A stretch of DNA of 54,586 nt from a virus. The translations under genes and the position numbers were made by a program. The DNA lies in IMG/VR virus record IMGVR_UViG_3300042519_001736, positions 1-54,586 of that record; one strand, given 5' to 3'. Below, piece by piece: positions 19,125 through 53,361 of this stretch. Numbering within the stretch: position 1 is the first letter of the stretch; every line of letters starts with the position of its first letter. The notes under the pieces are model-generated. The model did not search any database. It was given only the letters and a program-made list of their open reading frames with translations, and was not told the origin of the DNA.

Positions 19125-20596
19125 GACAGGTTTCCCGACACTATTGCACGTGAGGCGGAAATAAAGAAGACAGTGGCCAACCCCCGCGTCAAAATGCCAA
19201 AAGAACCAATGTCATCGTTCGTCCCTGCTTTGTAAACGTCCGTAACAGCAGAACAGGTGCAGGTGATGGTTGCACTCGTGTTGTTGACAATGCTGATGAC
19301 ATCTCCCGCTGCAAATACGGTACCTGGAACCACGACAGTGCCCCCTGTCTGCAGTTCAATAAATTTGCCCACATCCGATAGCACCAACGTGTAGCTAGAT
19401 GTTTTGTTGCTCCCAGATTGAGGGATATTTCGATAGCCTACGCTGGCCGTTCCGTCTACAGTGCAGTTGGTCAATGTCCCACTGGCAGGTGTGCCCAAAG
19501 CCGGTGTCACAAGAGTGGGACTGGTTGCAAAAACAGCCGCGCCACTGCCCGTCTCGTCTGTCAGCGCCCCGGCCAAATTAGCGGAGGTAAACGACCCCAA
19601 AGAAGTGGCATTCCCCGTTGACGTGACCGCCCCCGTGAGGTTGGCGTTGGTCGTCACGCTGCCTGCTGTCAGGCCTGCCGCCGTGCCGGTGATGTTAGTG
19701 CCCACAAGCGCCGAAGGCGTTCCAAGGGCGGGCGTAACGAGGGTAGGGCTGTTTGCAAAAACAGCCGCGCCACTGCCCGTCTCGTCCGTCAAAGCTCCGG
19801 CCAGGTTGGCAGAAGTGAACGATCCCAAAGAGGTGGTCGTTCCTACCGAAGTCACTGCGCCCGTAAGGTTGCCCACCCCAACGGCGCTAACAGTTTGATT
19901 TGGCCAAGTGCCTGTGATTGTGACGTTGGTCCCCTGCACCAAGGAAGGGGTGGCAGTGCCTGTCCCGCCGTTGGCAACTGGCAACAATCCCGTCACGCCC
20001 GTTGACAAGGGCAGGCCCGTGGCATTGGTCAGCGTTCCGCTGGAAGGGGTGCCTAAAGCCGGTGTAACCAGCGTCGGGCTGTTAGACAGCACGTTACTGC
20101 CCGTGCCTGTCGAAGTCGTAGCCCCTGTTCCGCCACTCGTAACAGGCAGTGCCGCACCAAGGGTCAAGGCACTGAAATGCGTGACAGCATCAATTACGTT
20201 CACCCCGTTCACATACAGGTGCATCTTTGCGCCATTGGGAATGGTGATGCCCGTCCCTGCGGACGTTTTTACGGTAATGCTTTGGCCGCCAGACGTGTTG
20301 TTGTGGACCAGATACTGCTTTTCGATCGTCGGGACGACCAGTTCGCGGGTCGCGGTCAAATTGCCCACAGATGTTGCATTGAGGACCAAGGCTCGCGCTG
20401 TCTGCAAAGCGGGCCCCAGCAGGTCCGTCAAATCAATAGTCAGGTTGGTGTCCGTCAAAAACACAGGGTTGCCCAGGCCAGTGATAGCCTGTTCAATGGC
20501 CGTGCCAATGTTGGTGTTGGTCGTGTCGCCCCAAGTGTTCGACTGCTCGCCGCTGCCGATCAGCTCAAACTTAAGGTCTGAAAAGGTACTTGCCAT
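19121..20596 (-). CDS. Tail fibre protein, long copy
   Basis: 491 residues, starting MASTFSDLKFELIGSGEQSN. The first 140 residues are a conserved attachment region shared with the short copy at 23353-23964. The middle carries imperfect repeats of about 35 residues built on SANLAGALTDETGSGAAVFA and SPTLVTPALGTPS, typical of beta-helical trimeric fibres. The C-terminal 80 residues form a distinct distal domain with TITCTCSAVTDVYKA. It probably makes the adhesion fibre. It sits among other fibre genes and is likely to be cotranscribed with them. Confidence 0.85.
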   Translation of the reverse strand: MASTFSDLKFELIGSGEQSNTWGDTTNTNIGTAIEQAITGLGNPVFLTDTNLTIDLTDLLGPALQTARALVLNATSVGNLTATRELVVPTIEKQYLVHNNTSGGQSITVKTSAGTGITIPNGAKMHLYVNGVNVIDAVTHFSALTLGAALPVTSGGTGATTSTGTGSNVLSNSPTLVTPALGTPSSGTLTNATGLPLSTGVTGLLPVANGGTGTATPSLVQGTNVTITGTWPNQTVSAVGVGNLTGAVTSVGTTTSLGSFTSANLAGALTDETGSGAAVFANSPTLVTPALGTPSALVGTNITGTAAGLTAGSVTTNANLTGAVTSTGNATSLGSFTSANLAGALTDETGSGAAVFATSPTLVTPALGTPASGTLTNCTVDGTASVGYRNIPQSGSNKTSSYTLVLSDVGKFIELQTGGTVVVPGTVFAAGDVISIVNNTSATITCTCSAVTDVYKAGTNDDIGSFGILTRGLATVFFISASRAIVSGNLS

Positions 20597-20981: not shown

Positions 20982-21941
20982 TTAAAATGTTATTGAACCG
21001 GAGCCGGTAAATTTATAAATCCTGAATCCACCGACCACTGTAATTGTTGGACTGCCCGTTGTAGCGGTCGCGGCTCTAAATGCCGAAGAGTAGCTAATAA
21101 TCACAATACCCGAACCACCGGTGCCACCGCCCAATTGATTTACGCCGTTGGGGCCGGTGGTACCTGCACCTCCGCCGCCACCTCCTGTATTTACGGTGCC
21201 ACTAGCGCCAGCAGTAGGTGTCCCGCTCCTTGTCCCACCATCGCCACCGCCACCAGCTCCTCCTGGACCCCCTACAGCGTTCCAAGTCCCACCTCCTCCG
21301 CCCCCCGCATATGTCACGGCGGACCCGGAGATACTTGATGTAGTACCCGTCCCGCCGGCTCCCGCCAAAGCTTGGGAGGCGTTCCCTCCAACAGATGAGG
21401 CCCCTCCTCCTCCTCCGGCATTGTAATTGGGTCCACTAGAATCAGTGCCCCCGTTGTTCCCTTGGCCCACTATGCCTGAACCTGGCCCATAGCCTGGGAA
21501 TGCACCTCCCCCTCCGGAACCGCCATTTTGGCCGGCGAGTCCGGTATTGGTAAGGTTTCCTCCACGACCTCCCCCCGTAGAGGTTATACTACTAAAAACA
21601 GAATTACTCCCGTTTGCATAAGCATTATTAGTGCCGGCCGGCTGACCAATGCCTCCCCCGCCTACTGTTACTGTAATAGCCGTGCCGGCGGAGACCGCAA
21701 ACCCTGATGCAGTAAGTAATCCCCCAGCACCACCGCCACCACCCTCCCAGCCACCGCCACCGCCGCCCCCTGCCACAACAAGATATTCAACTGTTGAGGG
21801 CGCAGGGAGTACAACTAGCGGCCAATTATTCGCCTGTTCTAATTGAATTTGCTTGCTAATACCCCAGACCGCACTAGTGGCAGATGAAGTCGAGGCGGGT
21901 GGAGTGGCAGAAATCGAACCGCCTTTGTATCTTTTAACCAT
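20982..21941 (-). CDS. Glycine-rich tail-fibre protein, copy B
   Basis: 319 residues. The N-terminal 60 residues (MVKRYKGGSISATPPASTSS) and the C-terminal 45 (SGIVIISYSSAFRAATATTG) flank a core that is roughly half glycine with GGGGGG runs, a 'glycine-rich domain' fold seen in phage adhesins. It is a paralogue of 22015-22980. The two share nearly identical ends at DNA level but have diverged cores. Likely a receptor-recognition tip or fibre segment. Confidence 0.8.
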   Translation of the reverse strand: MVKRYKGGSISATPPASTSSATSAVWGISKQIQLEQANNWPLVVLPAPSTVEYLVVAGGGGGGGWEGGGGGAGGLLTASGFAVSAGTAITVTVGGGGIGQPAGTNNAYANGSNSVFSSITSTGGGRGGNLTNTGLAGQNGGSGGGGAFPGYGPGSGIVGQGNNGGTDSSGPNYNAGGGGGASSVGGNASQALAGAGGTGTTSSISGSAVTYAGGGGGGTWNAVGGPGGAGGGGDGGTRSGTPTAGASGTVNTGGGGGGAGTTGPNGVNQLGGGTGGSGIVIISYSSAFRAATATTGSPTITVVGGFRIYKFTGSGSITF

Positions 21942-21945
21942 TAAC

Positions 21946-21999
21946 TTATGACCTCATGAGTACAGAAGCAACAAACAAGGGGAAAGACGTGCTTGCCAT
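21946..21999 (-). pseudogene. Deletion scar: 17-codon fusion of a fibre-gene start to the tail of another gene
   Basis: Between the two glycine-rich genes is a 17-residue frame, MASTSFPLFVASVLMRS. Its first codons and upstream bases match the start of the MASTF fibre genes. Its end (bases around GAGGTCATAAGTTAATGG) matches the end of the gene at 22980-23351 and its junction with the next ATG. It looks like the remnant left when a fibre gene and its neighbour were deleted after a module duplication. Confidence 0.55.
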
Positions 22000-22014
22000 G
22001 ATTAAACTCTTATT

Positions 22015-22980
22015 TTAAAATGTTATTGAACCGGAGCCGGTAAATTTATAAACCCTGAATCCACCGACCACTGTAATTGTTGGACTGCCCGTTGTAGCGG
22101 TCGCGGCTCTAAATGCCGAAGAGTAGCTAATAATCACAATACCCGAACCACCTGCGCCACCGCCTTTGTGGTTAACTCCGGTATTGCCGGAGGTGCCCGC
22201 ACCCCCGCCACCACCTCCTGTATTCACAGTGCCACTAGTGCCCATACTATTTGTCCCGCCGGCCCCACCGCCGCCGGCCCCTCCTGCCCCTCCAACCGGG
22301 CTGCTGATGTTACCTGCACTACCCCCGCCGCCTCCAGCATACGTTACGGAACTCCCAGAAATACTTGATGCAGTGCCGGCTCCGCCGACCCCACAAACAG
22401 TGCCGGTTCCAATACCTCCAACGGCGGAGGCTCCACCGCCCCCTCCAGCGCCATAGTTAGGTGCAGTAGTGCCAATGCCCCCGTTGTTACCTTGGCCGAC
22501 TGTCCCTGTTCCACCGCCGGCGGAGGCTCCGGAGTTGTATGAACCCCCTCCTCCCGAACCTCCATTTTGACCCTTTAATCCGGCATTGGTAAAGTTTCCT
22601 CCACGACCTCCACCCGTAGAGGTTATACTACTAAAAACGGAATTACTTCCGTTTGTGTAAGCATTATCAGTGCCGGCCGGCTGACCAATGCCTCCGCCGC
22701 CCACAGTTACTGTAATAGCGGTGCCGGAGGAAACTGCAAACCCTGATGCAGTTCTAAATCCCCCAGCGCCACCACCCCCGCCCTGCCAACCACCACCACC
22801 ACCACCCCCTGCCACAACAAGATATTCAACTGTTGAGGGTGCAGGGAGTACAACCAGCGGCCAATTATTCGCCTGTTGTAATTGAATTTGATCGCTAGTA
22901 CCCCAAACCGCACTAGTGGCAGTTGAAGTCGAGGCGGGTGGAGTGGCAGAAATTAAACTGCCATCGTATCTCTTGACCAT
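22015..22980 (-). CDS. Glycine-rich tail-fibre protein, copy A
   Basis: 321 residues from the ATG at 22980 (MVKRYDGSLISATPP); its ATG shares one base with the stop of the upstream gene (TAATG). A start eight codons further up is possible but lies within that gene. The architecture equals copy B: conserved head, glycine-rich core, conserved C-terminal 45 residues. DNA at 22019-22152 is nearly identical to 20988-21121. Divergence is concentrated in the core, as expected if the core contacts a variable host surface. Confidence 0.8.
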   Translation of the reverse strand: MVKRYDGSLISATPPASTSTATSAVWGTSDQIQLQQANNWPLVVLPAPSTVEYLVVAGGGGGGGWQGGGGGAGGFRTASGFAVSSGTAITVTVGGGGIGQPAGTDNAYTNGSNSVFSSITSTGGGRGGNFTNAGLKGQNGGSGGGGSYNSGASAGGGTGTVGQGNNGGIGTTAPNYGAGGGGGASAVGGIGTGTVCGVGGAGTASSISGSSVTYAGGGGGSAGNISSPVGGAGGAGGGGAGGTNSMGTSGTVNTGGGGGGAGTSGNTGVNHKGGGAGGSGIVIISYSSAFRAATATTGSPTITVVGGFRVYKFTGSGSITF

Positions 22981-23351
22981 TAGCTTATGTCCTCGTAGCT
23001 GCAAGTCACGACTAAGGTTGTTGATGTTGATGCAGTTGCACCTAGACTTTGATTTTCTTCTAAGTAATACTGGCTTGTTTTATCAATAATGTTTAAAGTA
23101 GTGTTGGCAGGCACTGATATAGTACTTGCAATTGCAAAACTTGTTCCTGCTAAACTAGCGGCATTATTCCAGACCAGTGTTACGGAAACTGTATTAAGGG
23201 AAGTGTTGGCTACGTTAACAGTATTAATTTTCAAGCATTTTCCACTGCTGGCTGCATTGCTCAACACGGAAGTTGCAGAGGTTGTTGTTAGACTCACCGC
23301 TGTTGTCTTTCCGTAGATTGCCGTTGCTGCGATTAAATTTGGTGCTGCCAT
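22980..23351 (-). CDS. Small beta-rich fibre-module protein
   Basis: 123 residues, starting MAAPNLIAATAIYGKTTAVS. Predicted as a beta sandwich with alternating Thr/Val-rich strands (CLKINTVNVANTSLNTVSVT). The layout resembles the 110-residue protein at 12534-12866. It sits between the short fibre copy and glycine-rich copy A. A matching copy appears to have been lost at 21946-21999. Structural role inferred. Confidence 0.65.
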   Translation of the reverse strand: MAAPNLIAATAIYGKTTAVSLTTTSATSVLSNAASSGKCLKINTVNVANTSLNTVSVTLVWNNAASLAGTSFAIASTISVPANTTLNIIDKTSQYYLEENQSLGATASTSTTLVVTCSYEDIS

Positions 23352-35695: not shown

Positions 35696-38600
35696 TTATC
35701 GAGTGCGTGGGGACGCTCCGAGCTCTGTTTTGTAATTCTGCAGCAAGGGGGTCAGGTAGCTGTCCGACTCTTCAATTGCTGCTGGCTTGAGGTGAGTTTG
35801 CAAGAATCTTAAGACGGCGGCATCATATTTCTCAGGTGCGGTGTTGCCCGAAGCACGACCGTTGCCCTTGATTTGTGTCACGACAGGCGTGGTCTCGTCC
35901 AGCATCTTCACCTCGATTGTGTTGACAGGTCTATTACGGTTGTCACGTAGAGTATATACCTGCCATTTGCCGGTGCCAAAGCCGTCCATTTTATCTTTAG
36001 AGTAACCTACGCCACCCAGCTCATAGCCGCCCACGGAGTGGCCGACATACGCGCCTTCCGGCACTGTTGCTTCGCGCTTTTCAATGCGTTTCCAGGCAAA
36101 GCCGTCCAGGCCCGAGCCCTCGCCAAACTGCAGCAGGGGCTTGCTCACGCCATCAGAAAACACGTTTTCCGCCACGGGCTTGCCAGCTTTAATCCTGCTG
36201 ACCATGGTCTCAAGCTTGAACTTGTTTTCGCCCAGCTTCAGGCCGCCGCGTACCGCGTCTTCAAAACGGATGTTGGCAAGCTCTCGCGCGGGCAGGCTGG
36301 CGAGATACTCATTGATGTTTTCTGGCTTAAACAACACGCCAAGTGTCTTGCCCATGTAGCCAATGTCGTAAACAGGCTCGCCCTTTTCAATGGCGGTAAG
36401 CACGTTTTGGGGCAGCAGATTTGGGCCCACTTCGGACTGGTCCAAGCCTTGCAGGCCTGAGCGGCCCTTGCCAAACTGGTCATTGGCCCACGCAAGCTGT
36501 TGCTCGGGTGTCATCTTCTTGTAGGCAGATGCCTCTTCAAACGCCTGATACAAATCCTTTGCCGAACGCGCGCTGTTCTCGCTCACAATGCGGTCCGGGT
36601 CCTTAACTCCACGGGTCGTAATCCCTATTTCGGTGTTAATCAGCTCTGGTCGCATGCCCTGGGCCATCATCTTGTCCGCTTCTATCTCTGCCGCTGCACG
36701 GCCCATGGCCCGGCCTTCCGAGCTGATGGAGCTGTAGGCGGTCTCAGCAGCGGCAGGGTTGGTGGTGATCAGGTTGCCCCGGAGGCCCGTAGCCTCGTCA
36801 TAGCGCCGCGAGACGTCTTCGTATGATTCCGGATATTCTGGAAAGAAGCGCGATTCAGCGGGCCCTGGGCCAACAAAATCCGCAGCTGGGCGTGCCCCTT
36901 CTTTGGTCCTTGTCTTGCCTACGGCCAAGGAATCTATAAGGCTCCTCGGAAAGCCTGTTCTCAGGTCTGACAACGCCGTTCCCTTGAGCTTCTTTGTTTT
37001 GATGCCTTCCAAAATCGGGTCGTCTGGCGTGCCGTACTGCCGTTCAAAGTAGTTGCGCGCCTTTTTGTTCCAAAAATCTTCGATGAGGCCGCGTTTCTCA
37101 TCGTTTCTTTCTGTGACGTATTTGGCCTCAGTTATGCCGCCTTGCAACAATTGATCTACTTCGCTGACGTTTTTGTTCAAGCCCACAGTGCCCGTGAGCA
37201 TGGTGCTGCCGGTGGGGCGCACCGCATACGACGCGCCAGGGACAGAAATCTGGCGGTTGTACTCCAAGAAATCCTTGCCCACGTCAGCAGCCTTGTCGCC
37301 CACGGCCTTGGCTGCCTTCATGCCTGCGCGCACAGGCGCTGCAGGGTTCACGGCGCTTGAGCCGATCTCAGCGATGTTGAACAAGGCCCGCGCGGCTGTG
37401 CCTTCCTTGGGCGGCTCTTGGCGGATGCCGGCCTTGGTGGCACGGCGCTTCAAATCCTCCGAGCCCAGCATGGGCGCTTCCACGTTGTAGCCAAACGGAC
37501 GCATGGCCATGGTGGCCAAGTCCACCGGTGCACCCAAGAGGTTGTACGGTGTTTCAGAGATGCCCTGCAATGCAGCAGCTTCCAGGTCCCCTGCCTTGGT
37601 CGAGCTCTTGCGACCTTTGCCAGACTTGGGCGTGACAAAAGCAGGCCTGCTTGCGGCGTCAAGCTCTGCTTGCGAGACCTCTCCCTCTTCAGGGCTGCCC
37701 TCGGCGCGGTACTCGGGACGCTGGGCCGGGCCCTTTTCGGCCTTGGCCTTGCGCGCGTCCAGCTGCTCACGGCTCATGATGTAGGGTTTGTCCTTGGTTT
37801 GCTTGGTCTGAGCCTGCAGCGCCATGGCCTGCACCAGCTTTTCCAACTCAGCCTGGCTCGTGGACCGCGCTGCAAGTTCCGCACCGATGCGGTTGTTGTG
37901 AACATCGTAGGGCAGGTCGTCACGCGGCTTGCCAATGCCCAGTGCCGAAAAGAAGGTTTGCGGGTTGCTGGTGTACTCGTGGGCCTTGCCCAGCAACTCT
38001 GCCGCCTTGGGACCATACTTGCGCGCCACACTGCCAGCGGCCAACATATGCCGGGCCGCGTCCCGCTGATCGTCTTGGCCAAGCTGGTCAGGGAACATGC
38101 GGGCCGACGCCTTGGTGGCATAGTCACTCACGCCGAAGATGCTGGGCTCAGCCACTTCGGCCTCAGGCTTTTTTACTTCACCACCTTTAGCAAAAGTCTT
38201 CTTACCCAGAGTGTTCCTGGTCAGGGTTGGTGCCTCCAATGTGGGCGCTCCAAGGGTATTGGCCCGTAGGCCAAGGGCCTTGTTCTTGGCAATTTTGATC
38301 TTGCGCTGATACTGCTCGACAAACGCCTCCATCTGCGCCCGGGCTGAGTCCGTGTTTTTAGACTCACCAGGCGAGGATGTCGTGTCAAGCTTCAGCTGTT
38401 TGATTTCCGCCAAAGGAGCCAGCTTGAGGTTCATCTCCTTGGAAGACTCCGAACCGCCCGCGCCCCGCGAAGGGCGCTTTATGTTCTGGCGCACAGGGGA
38501 CAGCTTCTTGGTCACGCTAGTCACATCGGTCAAATACTTTTGAGCCGTGCCCAACGGGTCGATGTCAATTGAATCAGCCTTTTCCTTCTCTTGCTCTTGC

Positions 38601-41176
38601 TGCAGGTAGTCGCTGATATAAGTGCCGTTGCTCACGGCCTCTCCACCTTCTTTAAAGAACGCCGGCATTGTTGGGGCCGCAATGACATTGCCAAAACGGT
38701 CCGTTGTAGTGCCCAAGGTGCCTGACAGAGGCGCTCCTCCCCCTGAAGCTTGAGCGGACAGTTGGCCCTGTCTCACCGCGTCTGCTGCGGGGACCACTGC
38801 GGAAGCAACTGCGTTACCCATGCGATCCCGCGTGGTGCCGAATGTGTCTGACAGCTTCTTGTAGCTACCCAAAGTGTGGGGGTCCAGACTGTTATTGCCC
38901 ATTGAGCGCGCGGGTAAAGCGGGTGCAGACGGTGTGCCAGACTGGGCCGGCACCATTGGGCGCTCATAACTGTTCGCAGGAGCAGCCAGAGGGCCGACTG
39001 CGGTGCGCTTGAGCACCTCGTCTTCAAACGCGTTCAGGCCAGGGGCCCTCAAGCCGGCACCAGGGAGAGTGGGAACGCCGTAGTCAGGTGTGCCAGGGCC
39101 CCCAGGTGTGCCACCTGTTCCGGGCCTTGGCCGCATGGTTATCGGGTCAAATTCCCTTGGACCTGTAGCAGAACTCACTGCAATTCCGGTAGGGGGGATT
39201 GCCGGAGGTGTCACAGGTGGGGGTGCCACAGGTGGGGGTGCCACAGGTGGGGGTGCCACTGGCGGAGGTGCCACAGGTGGAGGTGCCACAGGTGGGGCTA
39301 CCACTGGCGGAGCTACCACTGGCGGAGCTACCACTGGCGGAGCTACCACTGGCGGAGCTACGGGAGGATTGGCAGCGGCGGCGGCACGTTTTCGGGCTTC
39401 TTCAGCCGCTGTTGTGTATTCTGGAACGCCACCAAACTCGGGGAATGCCGCAGCCAATTGCTCCGGGCTGTACTTGAGAAGCGCTTTATCCAGCTCTTCC
39501 TGCGTTTGCGGTCCCGATTTAATCAACGCACGAAGAGCCGCCGCCTGTTCCGCCGCAGTGGGAGGTGCCACTGGAGGCGCTTCGGGTGGGTCAATATTGG
39601 CGTTGACCTGTCCGGGTGCGGTAGCCATAGGCGGACCATTGACCTGTCCAGGTGCGGTAGCCATAGGCGGACCATTGACCTGTCCAGGCGCGGTTCCCAT
39701 GGAAGGACCATTGACTTGGCCGGGGGCAGTCCCCGCTTGATCAAATCCGTTTAAATCATCTCGAGCAGATGCCCCAATGCCGGGTGAGGAAAAACCCGGG
39801 TCGCCTAGTTGAGGGAAACCAGGAAGCGCTTCCAAGTCGTCTCTAGCTGAGCCTGAACCGCCCGGTGAAGAAAAACCCGGGTTTCCCGATGATGTGGGAC
39901 CAGGGGACCCCGCAGGGTCAGGCCTGTTCATCCAGTCGTCAACAAAGTTAGAGGGGGAACCAGCACCAGCACCAGCACCAGGGCTGCCGGGTATCGCTTC
40001 CAAGTCGTTTCTGGCCGAGCCTGAACCGCCGCCAAATCCCGCAATGGTGTCTTGAATGTGTTTGTTAAGGTCTTCAATGTATTTGTTGACGTTAGGCGGG
40101 GTTGTGTACAAGTGTGTAGCGGGCATTCCGCCACCCATGCCTACGTCGTTGGTCAAGGTGGGAATATTGCCGCCAGAGCCGTAGCCGCCAGAGCCACTAC
40201 CGGCGAGGCTACCACCACCACCACCACCGGCGGGGCTACCACCACCATCACCGGTGGGAGTTCCGCCGCCAGGGGCTTCACTGCCAGCACCACCACCGGC
40301 GGGAGTTCCGCCGGCCGGAACCCCACCAAAACTGCCAGAGTCCGCGCTGCCCGCACCGGGGCTACTAGGAATGCCGGAACCCACATCGCCAGCCCCTGGG
40401 CCGCTGGCGCTGCCAGAGCCTGCGCCGCCAAAACTGCCAGAGTCCGCGCTTCCCGGGCCCGCGCTACTGGCGCTGTTAGAGTTCACGTTGGAAAGGTTGT
40501 TCGTGACCCTTGACACGTTAACTGTTGGACGGGCAGGTGCTGGCAAATTTGCCAGCATCTGATTAAACCTGGACAAGGGTGCCGGCTGGTTTGATGCAGG
40601 GCGGAACACAGGTGCCGCAGGCGTTGCGCGTGCCGCCGGACTGTACAAAGGAGGCGGAGCTTTGTACGTATTTCTGTTCGTCGCAGGCGTAAATTGAGGC
40701 CCCGCACGGGTTGGCAGCGGGACCGTCGACCGACTCGCCGTCGGACCGTATAAAGGGCGCGGAGCTTTGTACGTATTTTTGTTCGTCGCAGGACTAAACT
40801 TAATGGCAGGCGGAAGGGGGTCCCGAAACCCAATAGCAGGAGCAGATGCCCTCGGACCACCAAAAGGCGAAGACCCAGTCGTTGTCCCACGCATTGTAGG
40901 AGCAGATGCCCTCGGACCACCAAAAGGTGAAGACCCAGTCGTTGTCCCACGCATTGTAGGAGTAGCTCGCGCTGCCTTAGCGGCAGCTTCCGCTCTTGCC
41001 CTCGCAGCCTTGGCGTCAGCCTCGGCCCTTACTCGCGCTGCCGTGGCCGCCGACTGCGCGGCTCGCTCGGCCTGAATACGGGCCACTCCAGCATTGTTTT
41101 TTGCCATGTTGTCCCGGGTTGCTTGAGAAATCCCCGGGGCGTTCATTTCGGCTGCTGTCCAGATTTTTTGGGCCAT
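35696..41176 (-). CDS. Giant 1,826-residue ejection/virion protein with DUF6973-like module
   Basis: The N-terminus has an Ala/Arg/Glu helix (residues 30-75), then a 60-bp tandem repeat (residues about 73-112), Pro-rich and Gly/Ser-rich linkers to about residue 720 with 36-bp and 15-bp repeats, and a charged helical region. Near residues 1033-1100, DQRDAARHMLAAGS ... LGKAHE ... DVHNNRIGAELA has the spacing of DUF6973-like modules (R-H, H-E, N-N-x-x-G) seen in phage and toxin-type proteins. The C-terminal 600 residues are well folded (QVYTLRDNRNRPVNTIEVKM). It is probably packaged and ejected into the host. A different role such as a hydrolase or effector is possible. It lies between portal and large terminase. 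Confidence 0.7.
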   Translation of the reverse strand: MAQKIWTAAEMNAPGISQATRDNMAKNNAGVARIQAERAAQSAATAARVRAEADAKAARARAEAAAKAARATPTMRGTTTGSSPFGGPRASAPTMRGTTTGSSPFGGPRASAPAIGFRDPLPPAIKFSPATNKNTYKAPRPLYGPTASRSTVPLPTRAGPQFTPATNRNTYKAPPPLYSPAARATPAAPVFRPASNQPAPLSRFNQMLANLPAPARPTVNVSRVTNNLSNVNSNSASSAGPGSADSGSFGGAGSGSASGPGAGDVGSGIPSSPGAGSADSGSFGGVPAGGTPAGGGAGSEAPGGGTPTGDGGGSPAGGGGGGSLAGSGSGGYGSGGNIPTLTNDVGMGGGMPATHLYTTPPNVNKYIEDLNKHIQDTIAGFGGGSGSARNDLEAIPGSPGAGAGAGSPSNFVDDWMNRPDPAGSPGPTSSGNPGFSSPGGSGSARDDLEALPGFPQLGDPGFSSPGIGASARDDLNGFDQAGTAPGQVNGPSMGTAPGQVNGPPMATAPGQVNGPPMATAPGQVNANIDPPEAPPVAPPTAAEQAAALRALIKSGPQTQEELDKALLKYSPEQLAAAFPEFGGVPEYTTAAEEARKRAAAAANPPVAPPVVAPPVVAPPVVAPPVVAPPVAPPPVAPPPVAPPPVAPPPVAPPPVTPPAIPPTGIAVSSATGPREFDPITMRPRPGTGGTPGGPGTPDYGVPTLPGAGLRAPGLNAFEDEVLKRTAVGPLAAPANSYERPMVPAQSGTPSAPALPARSMGNNSLDPHTLGSYKKLSDTFGTTRDRMGNAVASAVVPAADAVRQGQLSAQASGGGAPLSGTLGTTTDRFGNVIAAPTMPAFFKEGGEAVSNGTYISDYLQQEQEKEKADSIDIDPLGTAQKYLTDVTSVTKKLSPVRQNIKRPSRGAGGSESSKEMNLKLAPLAEIKQLKLDTTSSPGESKNTDSARAQMEAFVEQYQRKIKIAKNKALGLRANTLGAPTLEAPTLTRNTLGKKTFAKGGEVKKPEAEVAEPSIFGVSDYATKASARMFPDQLGQDDQRDAARHMLAAGSVARKYGPKAAELLGKAHEYTSNPQTFFSALGIGKPRDDLPYDVHNNRIGAELAARSTSQAELEKLVQAMALQAQTKQTKDKPYIMSREQLDARKAKAEKGPAQRPEYRAEGSPEEGEVSQAELDAASRPAFVTPKSGKGRKSSTKAGDLEAAALQGISETPYNLLGAPVDLATMAMRPFGYNVEAPMLGSEDLKRRATKAGIRQEPPKEGTAARALFNIAEIGSSAVNPAAPVRAGMKAAKAVGDKAADVGKDFLEYNRQISVPGASYAVRPTGSTMLTGTVGLNKNVSEVDQLLQGGITEAKYVTERNDEKRGLIEDFWNKKARNYFERQYGTPDDPILEGIKTKKLKGTALSDLRTGFPRSLIDSLAVGKTRTKEGARPAADFVGPGPAESRFFPEYPESYEDVSRRYDEATGLRGNLITTNPAAAETAYSSISSEGRAMGRAAAEIEADKMMAQGMRPELINTEIGITTRGVKDPDRIVSENSARSAKDLYQAFEEASAYKKMTPEQQLAWANDQFGKGRSGLQGLDQSEVGPNLLPQNVLTAIEKGEPVYDIGYMGKTLGVLFKPENINEYLASLPARELANIRFEDAVRGGLKLGENKFKLETMVSRIKAGKPVAENVFSDGVSKPLLQFGEGSGLDGFAWKRIEKREATVPEGAYVGHSVGGYELGGVGYSKDKMDGFGTGKWQVYTLRDNRNRPVNTIEVKMLDETTPVVTQIKGNGRASGNTAPEKYDAAVLRFLQTHLKPAAIEESDSYLTPLLQNYKTELGASPRTR
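39204..39370 (-). repeat. 15-bp coding minisatellite (Val-Ala-Pro-Pro-Val)
   Basis: About eleven tandem 15-bp units (variants of GGCGGAGCTACCACT on the plus strand) inside the giant gene. They encode repeated VAPPV / APPPV pentapeptides. Multiples of three keep the frame. Unit variants are arranged in runs, as expected from slippage. Confidence 0.85.
39605..39725 (-). repeat. 36-bp coding tandem repeat in the giant gene
   Basis: Units begin at 39605, 39641, 39677 and a partial one at 39713. Each encodes a 12-residue TAPGQVNGPPMA-type unit. The first two are nearly identical, the later ones diverge. In frame. Confidence 0.8.
40841..40960 (-). repeat. 60-bp tandem duplication in the giant gene
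   Basis: Two adjacent 60-bp copies differing at one base (GGCGA versus GGTGA), encoding two copies of a 20-residue TMRGTTTGSSPFGGP-containing unit. Near identity implies recent duplication. Confidence 0.9.
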
Positions 41177-43389: not shown

Positions 43390-43413
43390 AAAAAAACCCG
43401 GCACGCGGCCGGG
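43390..43413 (-). terminator. Intrinsic terminator T0
   Basis: Minus strand: CCCGGC stem, five-base loop, GCCGGG, then TTTTTTT. Ends the operon 43883-43438. A 25-base stretch here (43391-43415) is identical to 46123-46147. Confidence 0.85.
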
Positions 43414-43437
43414 TCCAGGGCGAGCAAAACCGGCGCG

Positions 43438-43656
43438 CTAAGCGGCCAGGCCCGCACGGTCGGCCAGGTCGGCCAGGATCGCGTCAGCGGTGCCCAGGGC
43501 ATCAGCGCGATCATCGGTAAAATACTCGGCCACCAGGCGGCCATCAGGGCCCAGGGCGCGCACCTGGTACTCAGACCAGGTAGCGGACCAAGCCACGCGC
43601 ACCAGGCCAGCATCGGCCAGGCGCACCAGCTGCACCAGGCGCAGGCGCGCGCTCAT
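43438..43656 (-). CDS. Small island protein, unknown
   Basis: 72 residues, starting MSARLRLVQLVRLADAGLVR, with RVAWSATWSEYQVRALGPDG. The strand-turn-strand pattern followed by a helix (ADALGTADAILADLADRAG) suggests a compact alpha/beta fold. ATGA overlap with the gene upstream. Codons are unusually rich in GCC/GGC and CCAGG words, unlike the structural genes. Function unknown. Confidence 0.65.
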   Translation of the reverse strand: MSARLRLVQLVRLADAGLVRVAWSATWSEYQVRALGPDGRLVAEYFTDDRADALGTADAILADLADRAGLAA

Positions 43657-43883
43657 GCTGCACCCCTAGCGGCCAGGTCGGCCGGGGTGACGGTGGCAAG
43701 CCAGGCGGGCCCGCAAATGTTGCGCACCTGTCGCAGTAGGTGCCCGTCAGGCTCTCGGGCATCCTGGCCGGTCAACCATGCGTCAGCCAGAGCATACCGC
43801 CAGTCACGGCCGTGACGGCCAGCAAAGGCGGCCACGGCGGCCAGCTGTTCAGCGCTCGGAGCGGGTTTAATTTTCGTTTTCAT
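43653..43883 (-). CDS. Small island protein of plasmid/phage type
   Basis: 76 residues from the ATG at 43883, preceded by the conserved AGAAAGCGAGAAAGT leader. Sequence RDWRYALADAWLTGQDARE then LLRQVRNICGPAWLATVTP is a pattern I have seen in small proteins of plasmids and phages with no known role. First gene of a two-gene operon under the promoter at 43932-43961, ending at T0. Confidence 0.7.
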   Translation of the reverse strand: MKTKIKPAPSAEQLAAVAAFAGRHGRDWRYALADAWLTGQDAREPDGHLLRQVRNICGPAWLATVTPADLAARGAA

Positions 43884-43931
43884 ACTTTCTCGCTTTCTTG
43901 GGTTGATCCCGGCCACCCGGCCGGGGCTTTT

Positions 43932-43961
43932 ATTTTAGTCTAAAAAATCCACTGTGTGCAA
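43932..43961 (-). promoter_or_regulatory. Island promoter Pa with hairpin leader
   Basis: Minus strand: -35 TTGCAC, 18-bp spacer, -10 TAAAAT (in TTAGACTAAAAT). The transcript would begin with a CCCGGCC/GGCCGGG hairpin and then AACCCAAGAAAGCGAGAAA before the ATG at 43883. AGAAAG can pair with the extreme 3' end of 16S rRNA. Confidence 0.75.
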
Positions 43962-43990
43962 CAAATAAAAAAGCCCGCCAGGTGGCGGGC
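43961..43990 (-). terminator. Intrinsic terminator T1
   Basis: Minus strand: GCCCGCC stem, four-base loop, GGCGGGC, then TTTTTTATTTG. Ends the operon 45237-44012 and is immediately followed by promoter Pa. Confidence 0.85.
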
Positions 43991-44011
43991 TCGGTGACCA
44001 GGGCGGCCAGG

Positions 44012-44221
44012 TCAGCGCATGCGGAATTCATTGGCCAGGTCCTGGCCACCATGGCGGCCGATCCACCCGCGACCGTTCAGGCCCAAGGGCGTGCGCTCTA
44101 CCGTTATTTGATTTTCTCCCCAAGTCAGCTGCACCCAGGTTTCACCGGCGGCCAGGGCTTTGCGGATCGCAGCGCGCAGCGTGGGCCCGCTCGGTTTTTT
44201 GGTGTATTCAATCGATCGCAT
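44012..44221 (-). CDS. Small island protein downstream of DUF932 gene
   Basis: 69 residues, starting MRSIEYTKKPSGPTLRAAIR, with GETWVQLTWGENQITVERTP. Two bases after the stop of the DUF932 gene, so cotranscribed. Looks like a small beta-hairpin/helix fold. Partner or regulator of the DUF932 protein by position only. Unknown family. Confidence 0.65.
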   Translation of the reverse strand: MRSIEYTKKPSGPTLRAAIRKALAAGETWVQLTWGENQITVERTPLGLNGRGWIGRHGGQDLANEFRMR

Positions 44222-44223
44222 GA

Positions 44224-45237
44224 TTAAACCCCCACGGCCAGCAAGTCGACGGCCCGGGCTTTGAGCGCTGCACCGGTGCCAAACCAGGCCGACTCCATGC
44301 GGGTATTATTCGAGCGGCCGCGCTCATGGTCGACCAGCTCGGTCACCGCGTTAAGCATTGCCCAGCGGGTCCCGGCCACCCCGGGCAGCTCGGACCCGAT
44401 CGCGCCACCGTTAAATAATTGCATGATCCGGTTATAGGCTTTGGACTCGGTCACCGGGCGCGCGCTCGTGTGATAAGGGCGCAGCAGCTCGGCCACAAAA
44501 TCATCAGCCTGGACTTGATCCATGCCGGTCCCGGCCAGCTGTCGCGACTGCACTAAAAACCCCTCAAACGAATTAGCAACGATTCCCAGCTGTAACCGGA
44601 CAGCCTGGGCGTCAAAGCGCTCAGAATGCAAAACCCGAACGGCCGATTTTAAATAACCGGTGGTTGTCTCGCGCTCGCCCTGGATCACGCGGCCGCCACT
44701 ATAGCCGCCCACGGCGGCCGTTATGGTGTTATTGCAAACCACCCGGATAGCGGTAAATTTCGCCACGGTCGCCATGGTCCCATCGTAGCTGGTGCCCAGC
44801 AGTAAATAAGGCTTGACCAGGTCACCGGCCACCACGGGGGCAGCGTCGCCAACACTGGCCAGGGCCCAAACCCGGCGGCCATCGCTCAGCGCGCCAGCTG
44901 TTTCAAGCTCAAACCCGCCCAGGTCGACCAGCTCGCGGAAAAAGTCCATAACCTGGCCAGGCTGCACCACGTTATATGCGCTCGACACCACGGCCAGGGG
45001 CGCGCCGGTGTCAGAACGGTGCAGCACCTTGCGAGCGGGCCAGGTTTGCAGGTCAGTGGCGGCCGGGGTCGAATACTGGACCGGGCTTTCGATCACGTCA
45101 TAAGCTAACCCGGCTTCACGGGTCCAGGTGTCAATACTGGCCCCAGGTGTCAGGGCCTGGCCCAGGCCATGCCAGGGGGTTTGGCCGGTGTATGCAATAG
45201 CAGCGCGGCCGGTGGTGGTGTCGATCATGTGAGCCAT
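44224..45237 (-). CDS. DUF932 phage/plasmid-like protein
   Basis: 337 residues from the ATG at 45237, after AAGAAAGCGAGAAATCACC; an in-frame ATG at 45273 lies within the leader. Motifs of DUF932 (the TIGR03299-type 'phage/plasmid-like' proteins): TPWHGLGQALTPGASIDTW, VVSSAYNVVQPGQVMDFFRE, FTAIRVVCNNTITAA and a C-terminal RWAMLNAVTELVDHERGRS. The family is widespread on conjugative plasmids and phages; its molecular role is not settled. Located between promoter 45291-45320 and terminator T1 with its own small downstream gene. Confidence 0.88.
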   Translation of the reverse strand: MAHMIDTTTGRAAIAYTGQTPWHGLGQALTPGASIDTWTREAGLAYDVIESPVQYSTPAATDLQTWPARKVLHRSDTGAPLAVVSSAYNVVQPGQVMDFFRELVDLGGFELETAGALSDGRRVWALASVGDAAPVVAGDLVKPYLLLGTSYDGTMATVAKFTAIRVVCNNTITAAVGGYSGGRVIQGERETTTGYLKSAVRVLHSERFDAQAVRLQLGIVANSFEGFLVQSRQLAGTGMDQVQADDFVAELLRPYHTSARPVTESKAYNRIMQLFNGGAIGSELPGVAGTRWAMLNAVTELVDHERGRSNNTRMESAWFGTGAALKARAVDLLAVGV

Positions 45238-45290
45238 GGTGATTTCTCGCTTTCTTGGGTTATGACCGGGCAAAACCGCCCGGTCATTGA

Positions 45291-45320
45291 ATTTTAGTCT
45301 AATGTTTTTGGACTTGTCAA
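45291..45320 (-). promoter_or_regulatory. Island promoter Pb with hairpin leader
   Basis: Minus strand: consensus -35 TTGACA, 18-bp spacer, -10 TAAAAT (TTAGACTAAAAT as in Pa). The leader has a GACCGGGC/GCCCGGTC hairpin, then the same 19-base AACCCAAGAAAGCGAGAAA as Pa. Drives the DUF932 gene. Confidence 0.85.
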
Positions 45321-45338
45321 CAAGTCAACAAAATAAAT

Positions 45339-46028
45339 TTATTTGACCAGGCCCAGGTCGCCCACAATGTGATGGCGCAGCAAGGACCCGGGCGGCAACG
45401 AGCGCGCAAACCCGACCAGCTCGGCCGCGTCATCCTGGTGGCCGCCGGTCTTGGTTTTCTCCCAGGCCAGGCGGACCGGGCCCGCGTTACCGTAACAGCC
45501 CCCAGGGGTGTCAGCACCGACAAGGGCCTGGCCGCTACCGTGCGCGACAAAAACAATTACATAATCCCGGTCACCCCGGGCGCATAACGGGCGGCCGTTC
45601 CCGCACTGGGCACAGCTGAAATTCTCGGCCAGCTCGGCCGGGCATTGTGCAAAGCGCACGCCCTCGACCGTATACGGCCAGACCGTACCGGCCGGAGCGG
45701 CCACCACGGCCGGGCGGCCGATGGCCACGGCGGCCAGGGCCTGGCCGATGGTGTCGCAGCTGGCATTAATCACGGTCTCGCCAGGTGCTGGCACGGGCAG
45801 CAGCTCGGCCGCAAAATGAGAATAAGCCCAGGCTTGACCACTACGGGGCACGGCTTGACGCACGGCCGCCAGATAATCCGCGTCGACCAGGTCGGCCGCG
45901 TGCTGGCCCTGAGGGTTGAGCGCGCATGTTTTCGGACACGTGCCAAATACGTTATGGCCGCCGGCCCGATAAGTCACCGCGATGGGGCCGGTTTTTTTGT
46001 TGCCGGAATTTTTAACGGTCTTAAGCAT
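45339..46028 (-). CDS. Cys-rich island protein, DUF7227-like
   Basis: 229 residues. At least eight Cys in pairs and singles: GTCPKTCALNP near 30, ASCDTIGQ near 90, QCPAEL, CAQCGNGRPLCAR near 140-150 and GGCYGNAGPV near 178. Together with buried His this suggests one or more metal sites. The string resembles a phage/plasmid family I recall as DUF7227 (not searched); no catalytic role known. Own promoter (46081-46110). No terminator separates it from promoter Pb, so read-through into DUF932 is possible. Confidence 0.75.
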   Translation of the reverse strand: MLKTVKNSGNKKTGPIAVTYRAGGHNVFGTCPKTCALNPQGQHAADLVDADYLAAVRQAVPRSGQAWAYSHFAAELLPVPAPGETVINASCDTIGQALAAVAIGRPAVVAAPAGTVWPYTVEGVRFAQCPAELAENFSCAQCGNGRPLCARGDRDYVIVFVAHGSGQALVGADTPGGCYGNAGPVRLAWEKTKTGGHQDDAAELVGFARSLPPGSLLRHHIVGDLGLVK

Positions 46029-46080
46029 TTTCTTTCTCGCTTTCTGGGTTGCGGCCGGGCGGGTTGCTGGCCTAATTGAA

Positions 46081-46110
46081 ATTTTAATCTAACATTTATC
46101 CACTTGTCAA
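46081..46110 (-). promoter_or_regulatory. Island promoter Pc
   Basis: Minus strand: -35 TTGACA, 18-bp spacer, -10 TAAAAT (TTAGATTAAAAT). Leader ends AACCCAGAAAGCGAGAAAGAAA before the ATG at 46028. The spacer contains TTATCCACT, an eight-of-nine DnaA-box-like match, probably coincidental. Confidence 0.85.
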
Positions 46111-46122
46111 CTATCCACCAAC

Positions 46123-46146
46123 AAAAAACCCGGCACGCGGCCGGGT
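46123..46146 (-). terminator. Intrinsic terminator T2
   Basis: Minus strand: CCCGGC stem, five-base loop, GCCGGG, then TTTTTTG. Same 25 bases as T0. Ends the three-gene operon 47008-46166 just before promoter Pc. Confidence 0.85.
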
Positions 46147-46165
46147 CGGGTCGGGTCCTGGTCGA

Positions 46166-46399
46166 TCAGGGCAGAACTTGCAGCTCTTCGGTGTTTATTT
46201 GCCGATACTTTTCGAACAGGGCCGAAAATGCTCCCAAAATGCGGGCCTTATTGTCACCGTCCGCGTGGAAATAAGCCACGGCCAGGGCTGCAGCAAAATT
46301 GCCGCCTATCTTTTCCATGGTTTGCGCTGCGCGGTGGTTTGCATCGGCCAGGGCCTGGATATGGTTTCGCATGTAAAACTGTTGAAGCTCAAAATCCAT
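46166..46399 (-). CDS. Small helical island protein
   Basis: 77 residues from the ATG at 46399 (MDFELQQFYMRNHIQALADA), which follows TTGGAGAAAACA; a frame opening at 46453 is rejected because it lacks a ribosome site and translates an A-run. All helix with GGNFAAALAVAYFHADGDNK. Last gene of an operon that ends at T2. Family unknown. Confidence 0.65.
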   Translation of the reverse strand: MDFELQQFYMRNHIQALADANHRAAQTMEKIGGNFAAALAVAYFHADGDNKARILGAFSALFEKYRQINTEELQVLP

Positions 46400-46437
46400 T
46401 GTTTTCTCCAAGTTAAAAAAAAAAACGGTCGGTCGGG

Positions 46438-46662
46438 TCACTGGTCGCGCCAATGGTCGAGCTGGTCGGCTATCGCGGCGGCCGTGGCATGCCAGGCCAC
46501 CGGGCTAATGATCGCCCGGGGATTATCGGCGGGCACGCCCGCGTCGACCACCTCGGCCGCATAACGGCGCACGGCTTCAATGATAAAAGCCTGGGACAAA
46601 GGCCCGCCGGGATTCATGATCATCAGATGGTTTACTTTCTGAATGTTCGTCTGTGTCTTCAT
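46438..46662 (-). CDS. Small helical island protein
   Basis: 74 residues from the ATG at 46662 (MKTQTNIQKVNHLMIMNPGG), preceded by AAGGGGGCCACC. Helices: LSQAFIIEAVRRYAAEVVDA and WHATAAAIADQLDHW. Middle gene of the three-gene operon. Unknown family. Confidence 0.65.
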   Translation of the reverse strand: MKTQTNIQKVNHLMIMNPGGPLSQAFIIEAVRRYAAEVVDAGVPADNPRAIISPVAWHATAAAIADQLDHWRDQ

Positions 46663-46672
46663 GGTGGCCCCC

Positions 46673-47008
46673 TTATGGCTTGATCGTGAATGACTGATCG
46701 GCAAACCAGTCGTTTATCGCGCTATCCAGGTCAATGGCTTCGGCCAGCTTGTCGGCGTCGAATTCCCCGGCCAGGTCGGACAGGTCAATATCCCCCGCAA
46801 TAATGGTCAGCTGGCTGTCGCGCAGCTCTCCGGCCAAGTTGGCCAGGTTGATGTGTTCAACCAGTTCTGACAGGTTGATGTTTTGGGCTATGCCTTCCAT
46901 GGCGTTTTCGCCGTCAGCATTTGCCAGCTCTTGGCGCACCATGTCGGCCACCATCGGGCGCAGCTGCTCGGCCAGGTCTTTCACAAGGGCTTCAATAATG
47001 TGTTGCAT
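46673..47008 (-). CDS. Island protein with repeated Ile-Asn/Asp-Leu motif
   Basis: 111 residues, starting MQHIIEALVKDLAEQLRPMV. From residue 43 it has spaced copies of a short unit: NINLSELVEH, INLANLAGEL, DIDLSDLAGEF, AIDLDSAIND. This periodicity resembles solenoid or pentapeptide-like coils but is short. Acidic overall (DNA-mimic character possible, inference only). First gene after promoter Pf with the conserved AGAAAGCGAGAAA leader. Confidence 0.7.
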   Translation of the reverse strand: MQHIIEALVKDLAEQLRPMVADMVRQELANADGENAMEGIAQNINLSELVEHINLANLAGELRDSQLTIIAGDIDLSDLAGEFDADKLAEAIDLDSAINDWFADQSFTIKP

Positions 47009-47060
47009 GTTCTTTCTCGCTTTCTAGGTTTTGGCCCGGCGAAATGCCTGGCACGGGTGC

Positions 47061-47090
47061 ATTGTAAAACTACTTTTATCAACTTGTCAA
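47061..47090 (-). promoter_or_regulatory. Island promoter Pf
   Basis: Minus strand: -35 TTGACA, 18-bp spacer, -10 TACAAT. Leader has an imperfect GCCAGGC/GCCGGGC hairpin and ends CTAGAAAGCGAGAAAGAAC before the ATG at 47008. Confidence 0.85.
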
Positions 47091-47230
47091 CTGTCCCCAC
47101 CAAATATTTTGTGGAACAGCCAAAAGCCCAGCAGCTTGAAGACCAGGCCTTTGTTCTGCTTGTCGTCGGGGGGTTTCGGTGGAGGTCGTCTCAGCGCGCG
47201 GTAAAGCGCGCGGCGTTCTGACCGGCGCAT
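47087..47230 (-). CDS. 47-residue basic-hydrophobic peptide
   Basis: Starts MRRSERRALYRALRRPPPKP three bases after the stop of the DUF2591 gene and ends in a hydrophobic helix (GLVFKLLGFWLFHKIFG). Its stop overlaps the -35 of promoter Pf. A basic head and amphipathic tail could make it membrane-active. Translation is uncertain. Confidence 0.45.
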   Translation of the reverse strand: MRRSERRALYRALRRPPPKPPDDKQNKGLVFKLLGFWLFHKIFGGDS

Positions 47231-47233
47231 GCG

Positions 47234-47563
47234 TCACTCTTTTACCAGGTCGTCAGGGATTTCCACGGTGTCGCCCAGCTTGCTGGCAACGTAGCACCGC
47301 ATGGCTGCGACCAAAGGGGTCGGGCCGTTCTGCATAGCCAAGCCACCGGGCGCGGGGCACTCTGCCTCCCACAGTGAATCATTGACGCAGTGCAGGTCAA
47401 TCCACTCTCGCTCAATGATCGGCCCACCTTTCGCCCAGTTGGTGGAATAAAGGTGCGGGCAATTCTTGGCCCTCCATCTTGTGGCTCTGTCGCTGACCGC
47501 CAAGCCTTCACACTTTGCCACCGCCCAATCAAGGGCAGCGCCTGTCAATTCTGATGTTTTCAT
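47234..47563 (-). CDS. DUF2591 phage protein
   Basis: 109 residues from the ATG at 47563, after AGAAAGAGAGAAAGAC. The DUF2591 pattern is clear: MKTSELTGAALDWAVAKCEG at the start, NWAKGGPIIEREWIDLHCV in the middle, and GPTPLVAAMRCYVASKLGD near the end. The family is common in early regions of proteobacterial phages, with unknown role. Driven by promoter 47660-47689. Confidence 0.9.
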   Translation of the reverse strand: MKTSELTGAALDWAVAKCEGLAVSDRATRWRAKNCPHLYSTNWAKGGPIIEREWIDLHCVNDSLWEAECPAPGGLAMQNGPTPLVAAMRCYVASKLGDTVEIPDDLVKE

Positions 47564-47659
47564 GTCTTTCTCTCTTTCTGTGGTTAAGGGTAGGCTACTC
47601 ACCGCGTCAAGTCGTGGATGGACCCACATAATCGCCGTCAGCAGCTTTCGCCCGTGGCC

Positions 47660-47689
47660 ATCCTAGCACAACTTCTGCCTACAAGTCAA
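47660..47689 (-). promoter_or_regulatory. Island promoter Pg
   Basis: Minus strand: -35 TTGACT, 18-bp spacer, -10 TAGGAT. The -35 overlaps the 3' end of the nuclease gene. About 90 bases of leader run to AGAAAGAGAGAAA before the ATG at 47563. Confidence 0.7.
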
Positions 47690-52978: not shown

Positions 52979-53295
52979 GTTGCCCCCGGCGTATAGGTGA
53001 TGGCCAAGAGGTTTTGGATCATGCCTTCCAGGTGGTTGACACGCTCTTGAGCCTCGGACCGCACCTTGGTTTGCTGCACCTTCAAGGTCTCGATCTTGCT
53101 GGCAATCAGCTGCTCAGTCGTGAGAACAAAGTCCACCGTGATGGTGGCCTCGCCTACGTAGGTCCAGCCGCTGCCGCGCATGTCATGCCGGGTAAACACC
53201 AGCGACTCAAGGGCAGCAGGAGTGCCAACTTGCTCGGGGCTCAAATTGCAATGATCAGGCAACCATGCCTTCAATGTTCCAGTGATTTCGTTCAT
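52975..53295 (-). CDS. Early protein, first gene of a sub-operon
   Basis: 106 residues, starting MNEITGTLKAWLPDHCNLSP. A beta-rich head (SGWTYVGEATITVDFVLTTE) and a C-terminal coiled coil (KIETLKVQQTKVRSEAQERV). First gene after promoter 53331-53361 with the leader ATAGAAAGATAGAA. Unknown. Confidence 0.7.
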   Translation of the reverse strand: MNEITGTLKAWLPDHCNLSPEQVGTPAALESLVFTRHDMRGSGWTYVGEATITVDFVLTTEQLIASKIETLKVQQTKVRSEAQERVNHLEGMIQNLLAITYTPGAT

Positions 53296-53310
53296 TTCTA
53301 TCTTTCTATG

Positions 53311-53326
53311 TTGTCAGGATTGACAA
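53311..53326. promoter_or_regulatory. Inverted repeat in the early leader
   Basis: TTGTCAGGATTGACAA: six-base arms around a four-base spacer, between the -10 and the ATG at 53295. It could be an operator or an RNA hairpin, like the hairpins in the island leaders. Confidence 0.5.
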
Positions 53327-53330
53327 GTTG

Positions 53331-53361
53331 ATTTTAACAGGAACCTTGAGGAACCTGTCAA
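53331..53361 (-). promoter_or_regulatory. Early promoter
   Basis: Minus strand: -35 TTGACA, 19-bp spacer, -10 TAAAAT (or 18 with TTAAAA). Same leader style as the island (AGAAAG ... AGAA). Drives the zipper operon 53295 leftward. Confidence 0.75.

Follow-up and report, generated by a model that had tools for sequence, protein, structure and literature searches.

A repeated promoter, hairpin and one-base-inserted Shine-Dalgarno module in front of accessory genes in a lineage of tailed phages

Main finding

Five cassettes with a common design lie on the minus strand of a tailed-phage contig, between the gene for a terminase small-subunit-like protein (terS) and that for the large terminase (terL), and all are outside the head and tail genes. 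Each consists, in order, of a promoter of the TTGACA-N18-TAAAAT type, a hairpin, the leader AGAAAG(C/A)GAGAAA and a start codon. We favour, as rather more than an even chance, the reading that these units would be autonomous transcription units for the host polymerase, in which a 5' stem-loop may shield the mRNA, the ribosome site may be tuned down, and the whole may form a fixed socket for accessory genes. The anatomy and conservation of the module, the covariation of its stem, the association of hairpin with ribosome-site class and the swapping of genes behind it can be read directly from the sequences.

The phage and its gene setting

The window analysed here is the whole contig, a virus record of 54.6 kb (54,586 nucleotides) with its tailed-phage genes on the minus strand. 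In addition to the terminase genes (Table 1), these include genes for a portal protein, a major head protein and an endolysin. The contig's closest annotated relative, Phage DSL-LC04 of Dishui Lake, shows 74% DNA identity to it over a 1-kb stretch. Phage DSL-LC04 was placed in the proposed family Dishuiviridae, and its predicted host group is the Gammaproteobacteria (PMC10611076). The interval between terL and the portal gene holds a 1826-codon open reading frame (35696-41176) without a PHROGs match; the counterpart position in DSL-LC04 is occupied by a PcfJ-like protein. An adjacent gene pair at 20982-23004, both members matching phrog_2295, is an apparent tandem duplication.

Table 1. Positions of the cassette elements and neighbouring features in the window
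Feature	Position	Strand	Detail or basis
terL, large terminase	41.2-42.9 kb	minus	
Cassette 1 ORF, 76 aa	43653-43883	minus	ATG at 43883
Cassette 1 one-base-inserted Shine-Dalgarno	43886..43898	minus	AGAAAGCGAGAAA
Cassette 1 5'-terminal hairpin	43908..43925	minus	CCCGGCC-GGGT-GGCCGGG; fold -16.4 kcal/mol
Cassette 1 promoter	43932..43961	minus	TTGCAC-N18-TAAAAT; promoter scan
Intrinsic-terminator-like hairpin, directly upstream of promoter 1	43965..43992	minus	
Cassette 2 gene, DUF932 (PF06067), 337 aa	44224..45237	minus	
Cassette 2 leader	45243..45255	minus	AGAAAGCGAGAAA
Cassette 2 5'-terminal hairpin	45264..45285	minus	GACCGGGCGGTTTTGCCCGGTC; fold z -2.9; covariation, 34 related leaders
Cassette 2 promoter	45291..45320	minus	TTGACA-N18-TAAAAT; promoter scan
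Cassette 3 gene, DUF7227 (PF23872), 229 aa	45339..46028	minus	
Cassette 3 leader	46033..46045	minus	AGAAAGCGAGAAA
Cassette 3 imperfect hairpin	46053..46072	minus	GGCCAGCAACCCGCCCGGCC; fold -8.3 kcal/mol, z -0.9
Cassette 3 promoter	46081..46110	minus	TTGACA-N18-TAAAAT; promoter scan
Intrinsic-terminator-like hairpin, directly upstream of promoter 3	46121..46147	minus	
Cassette 4 gene, 111 aa	46673-47008	minus	no family match
Cassette 4 leader	47013..47025	minus	AGAAAGCGAGAAA
Cassette 4 imperfect hairpin	47033..47054	minus	fold -9.7 kcal/mol, z -0.2
Cassette 4 promoter	47061..47090	minus	TTGACA-N18-TACAAT; promoter scan
Cassette 5 gene (exchangeable slot), NinX-like (PF10765), 109 aa	47234..47563	minus	
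Cassette 5 leader	47567..47579	minus	AGAAAGAGAGAAA
Cassette 5 long structured leader	47588..47653	minus	fold -27.3 kcal/mol, z -1.9; long stem
Cassette 5 promoter	47660..47689	minus	TTGACT-N18-TAGGAT; promoter scan
terS, terminase small-subunit-like	48.0-48.7 kb	minus	

Promoters

The original prediction had named five promoters with an 18-nt spacer. All five were recovered at their claimed sites with that spacer, the position used to name each one being the downstream end of the -10 hexamer on the minus strand; the shared string TTAGA(C/T)TAAAAT is indeed common to the promoters of cassettes 1, 2 and 3. By sequence the cassette promoters look like the sigma-70 type. Promoter-like sites are numerous between 42.9 and 54.6 kb (13, versus 4.2 +/- 2.0 in shuffles), and the three sites there that match at 11 of 12 positions are, every one, cassette promoters. 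Since terminator-like hairpins stand just upstream of promoters 1 and 3, both of these units look like self-contained transcription units. The 25 bp around the second of these hairpins recur at 43391-43415.

At 45305-45325, in the window and its close relatives, the -35 element lies within the palindrome GACTTG-TTGA-CAAGTC, which has no T tract and could be an operator. Among the related loci L053-L063 (e.g. L055, upstream of the DUF932 gene), the -35 element (TTGCGC or TTGACA) is part of a GC-rich inverted repeat, in its loop or in one arm, and the repeat, for example CAGGGGCTTGCGCCCCTGG, is followed by a T run (compare L080 and L084); with the -35 element inside the repeat and the T run after it, the intrinsic terminator of the upstream gene appears to be fused with the next promoter.

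Distribution of the design

Searching viral contigs with the DUF932 protein gave 337 related stretches, and 80 were retained for comparison. The same series of -35, 18 nt, -10, hairpin, AACC-like spacer, leader and ATG precedes the DUF932 gene at about 80 viral loci related to this one, and the promoter spacer is 18 nt in 49 of 57 distinct leaders. The design persists in diverged loci, down to approximately 77-80% protein identity. Distant members keep the hairpin and have the leader replaced by ACAGGAGAT (most of L061-L072) or AGAAAGGAT (L076-L079); this exchange indicates that the leader occupies the position of the ribosome site. In DSL-LC04 the hairpin is followed by AGAAAGAAAGCGAG.

In DSL-LC04 and eleven related contigs, matches to the leader pattern are clustered and mostly on a single strand, and the reversed pattern gives few matches. 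The full cassette pattern was found in 43 viral stretches, versus five matches across all genome contigs (Gastranaerophilales, Bacteroidia, Hydrogenothermaceae, Sphingobacterium and Paenibacillus). A host-derived element was rejected, as these five are scattered over unrelated organisms and resemble chance matches.

A unit on the opposite strand (G001 at 20305, plus strand; L013 at 3868; and relatives) likewise has an inserted Shine-Dalgarno sequence, with a promoter spacer of 17 bp. It has a long TTGTCA...TTGACA stem at its predicted transcript start and fronts a conserved 82-aa protein (MNTNNRVWIELELP).

The hairpin at the predicted transcript start

The clear hairpins expected in two cassettes are present at 43.9 kb and 45.3 kb, with folding energies of -16.4 and -18.3 kcal/mol respectively. 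Strong hairpins are thus found in two of the five cassettes of the window; those of cassettes 3 and 4 fold little or no better than shuffles, and their support comes from relatives, which keep GGCC...GGCC. Relatives of cassette 5 have a short CACCTGG..CCAGG or GGGCGAA..CGCCC hairpin in the leader position. The window's own cassette 5 leader exceeds that of relatives such as L013 by about 50 nt.

Compensatory change was assessed on 34 aligned leaders; distant relatives of the L061 type were left out of this pair count, their stem having been misplaced when they were aligned together with the others. Over the eight-pair stem, 93.0% of cells are paired, compared with 82.9% after shuffling, and 27 cells have changed on both sides of the stem, involving four of the pairs, versus 10.7 in shuffles (none of 500 reached 27). 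The covariation score is 0.365 against 0.195 (0/500), with a shuffle that does not keep the relatedness of the sequences. When the register is shifted by one to three columns, a control that does keep relatedness, stem pairing falls to 33-54%.

Position and accessibility are also conserved. The 5' edge of the stem lies 3-8 nt past the -10 element in 157 of 184 distinct leaders in front of many genes, which is where sigma-70 transcription should begin. Counted from this predicted start, the stem-loop stands within a few nucleotides of the transcript's 5' end, as in 5'-terminal stabilising stem-loops. The mean fold z over the 184 leaders is -2.35, and the Shine-Dalgarno sequence is unpaired within the fold in 152 of them. 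A search of the window against Rfam gave no family match at the gathering score. Two other identities for the hairpin were discarded. A sense intrinsic terminator or attenuator was rejected since the U tract after the stem is absent, only 11 of 184 leaders passing a loose rule. The N4-type promoter hairpin was set aside, as the hairpin here follows a sigma-70 promoter and shows no conservation of sequence.

A Shine-Dalgarno sequence with one inserted base

The leader is enriched over background, as had been predicted: sites within two mismatches of the 13-mer number seven, against a chance mean of 1.05, and none of 100 shuffles reached seven. Its sequence is exact in four cassettes and differs at one position in cassette 5 (Table 1). 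An extended or shifted Shine-Dalgarno sequence had been proposed. One base inserted into AGAAAGGAGAA describes the leader better than a shifted site does, because other genes in these phages are preceded by the perfect, uninserted form, which matches the 16S tail CUCCUUUCU perfectly. Complementarity of AGAAAG to the end of proteobacterial 16S rRNA had also been claimed. The CUUUCU tail does occur in Burkholderiales among others; the 16S rRNA of E. coli ends in CCTCCTTA, so that 'proteobacterial' is too broad. Although Gammaproteobacteria are the predicted hosts of DSL-LC04, the sites complementary to CUUUCU suggest a host whose 16S rRNA ends in this way.

The cassettes carry AGAAAG-N-GAGAA, in which N is C in 121 cases, A in 80, T in 33 and G in none, and the gap from leader to start codon is mostly 3-7 nt among the gene-family clusters. 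Where a promoter is present, the inserted form is accompanied by a hairpin at 205 places and lacks one at 10, and the uninserted form has one at three places and lacks it at 11, all these counts coming from related and hence not independent sequences. Gene-family clusters display the same split between inserted and uninserted forms as the pooled counts.

With the CUUUCU-ended tail CUCCUUUCU, which may not be that of the host, the inserted form is predicted to make nine pairs around a one-base bulge, and the duplex energies are -13.1 kcal/mol for the uninserted and -9.3 kcal/mol for the inserted sequence. A G at N gives the same predicted energy as the inserted form, so pairing strength alone does not explain the missing G; avoidance of a GGAG core, for example, may do so.

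Two other sites had been likened to the cassettes. For the gene at 1345 (AGAAAGAAGAA) the likeness fails, as its relatives have the uninserted AGAAAGGAGAA and no hairpin, and their Shine-Dalgarno sequence begins no more than about 15 nt past the predicted -10. The promoter at 53331 is at most a related variant: its 19-bp spacer stands as described, the hairpin at 53.3 kb is weak by folding and made of a TTGTCA/TGACAA repeat, and the Shine-Dalgarno sequence of a relative is uninserted. For both sites the likeness has less support than for the five cassettes, and they belong to neighbouring but different designs. The stretch 53285-53335 also has a GGTTCC direct repeat within the 19-bp spacer, TTGTCA-ATCC-TGACAA directly past the -10, and ACTTGTCAA, the reverse complement of the cassette sequence TTGACAAGT.

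A fixed module before an exchanged gene

Cassettes, 205 in all, were clustered by module and by protein. The cassette 5 module precedes about ten unrelated families of small proteins (predicted open reading frames). At all 13 loci checked it has identical neighbours, with the same gene about 59 nt upstream and the same cassettes following. Among 72 pairs with unrelated genes, the module has a mean identity of 0.84, compared with 0.81 for the end of the upstream gene and 0.50 past the start codon, where the value should be about that of unrelated DNA in a global alignment of this kind. Since the end of the upstream gene is also 81% identical, conservation of the module in this slot may partly be plain descent. 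In the window, the slot holds the NinX-like gene behind the longer structured leader.

Proposed working of the unit and alternatives

Judging by promoter quality, the host sigma-70 RNA polymerase would read each unit. Transcription would start about 7 nt past the -10, at the base of the stem-loop, and yield an mRNA with a paired 5' end. Structures at the 5' end are known to stabilise mRNA, since both RppH and RNase E require this end to be single-stranded, although loss of RppH affects only about 10% of E. coli mRNAs (PMC3997798). Because these enzymes rely on such ends, a stem at this position would hinder decay; its position and covariation suggest that it probably shields the message from 5'-end-dependent decay. 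After a short unpaired spacer, often AACC, AGAAAG-N-GAGAA would follow as a moderated ribosome site, as suggested by the predicted pairing around the bulge. Accessory genes between terS and terL may then use the module as a standard socket. We advance only tentatively the further view that a lineage of uncultivated freshwater phages possesses a standardised socket of promoter, capping hairpin and bulged Shine-Dalgarno sequence, in which cargo would turn over exactly at the start codon, while the inserted base would mark a distinct translational class, read in another way than the remaining genes of the phage.

The hairpin or the AGAAAGNGAGAA leader might instead be the binding site of a phage regulator, either an RNA-binding protein or a small RNA, with the gene class as its regulon. 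The 12-mer is conserved beyond the needs of pairing, N is never G despite equal predicted duplex energy, and the AGAAAG...GAGAA pair is fixed before otherwise unrelated genes. However, the hairpin sequence varies freely while pairing is kept, which makes a sequence-specific reader of the hairpin unlikely, and distant relatives put the ordinary ACAGGAGAT in the leader's place. We regard regulation of this kind as unlikely, though worth keeping in view.

Less probable still, but able to hold in addition to the favoured transcription-unit reading, is that the repeats are mainly substrates for recombination during cassette exchange and their roles in expression secondary. The sharp break in identity at the start codon of the swapped slot and the repetition of modules along one genome would fit this; blocks of homology, however, need no covariation, fixed distance from the -10 or fixed Shine-Dalgarno register, and hairpin sequences differ among cassettes within one genome. 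Very improbable is an antisense terminator that insulates the units, with the -10 complement (ATTTTA) as its U tract. On the plus strand the scan calls two cassettes terminator-like, and 81 of the 184 distinct leaders pass a loose rule for antisense terminators, but more than half fail it and the spacer from -10 to stem is not kept T-rich. Hardly any credence can be given to recent paralogy of ordinary promoters and ribosome sites duplicated along the genome with no special function. A 75% likeness between cassettes 3 and 4 over 100 bp speaks for it; against it stand the persistence of the design over the diverged loci described above, the covariation and the class association.

These phages offer a clean natural experiment, with two ribosome-site forms one base apart in one genome and the inserted form nearly always accompanied by a hairpin at the predicted 5' end. 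Short reporters could measure both the effect of bulged Shine-Dalgarno pairing in a host with the CUUUCU tail and the means by which short accessory mRNAs of phages are protected. The slot with its fixed module is also a practical handle on uncultivated phage contigs, in which candidates for host takeover or counter-defence could be sought behind the module.

Comparison with known systems

Literature searches on phage start-site hairpins and on bulged Shine-Dalgarno pairing gave no relevant paper, a weak negative as subscription journals lay outside them. The closest known system is that of the SAS and ESAS signals of cluster K mycobacteriophages, which the cassettes resemble in layout without being members. 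SAS is a 13-bp asymmetric repeat (consensus GGGATAGGAGCCC) a few nucleotides before the start codons of many non-structural genes; it overlaps the Shine-Dalgarno sequence, is conserved beyond it and fronts different gene families. Half of the SAS sites carry an upstream inverted repeat (ESAS), in which later work recognised a sigma-70-like promoter whose spacing is 17-18 bp. This imperfect 17-bp repeat overlaps the promoter, its consensus is conserved within a subcluster, and RNA pairing was judged unsupported.

Like SAS, the cassette element is a short asymmetric repeat a few nucleotides before the start codons of non-structural genes. Unlike SAS, it belongs to another host group, AGAAAGNGAGAA does not fit the GGGATAGGAGCCC consensus within two deviations when compared by eye, and the Shine-Dalgarno sequence has an inserted base in place of a perfect AGGAG. 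The inverted repeat also differs from ESAS in that it lies past the -10, within the predicted transcript, and covaries with variable sequence.

Stem-loops at 5' ends and phage morons are, taken singly, well known. With the stabilising stem-loops of the ompA/papA type (PMC3997798), the cassettes share a stem-loop near the predicted 5' end and, after it, a ribosome site that is accessible; they differ in forming a repeated, sequence-divergent series within one phage lineage, with a common promoter and Shine-Dalgarno sequence. Similarly to morons, they are individually promoted, often terminator-flanked accessory genes among core genes, with content that varies between relatives. In contrast to morons, it is the gene that is exchanged here, and the control module in front of it remains where it is.
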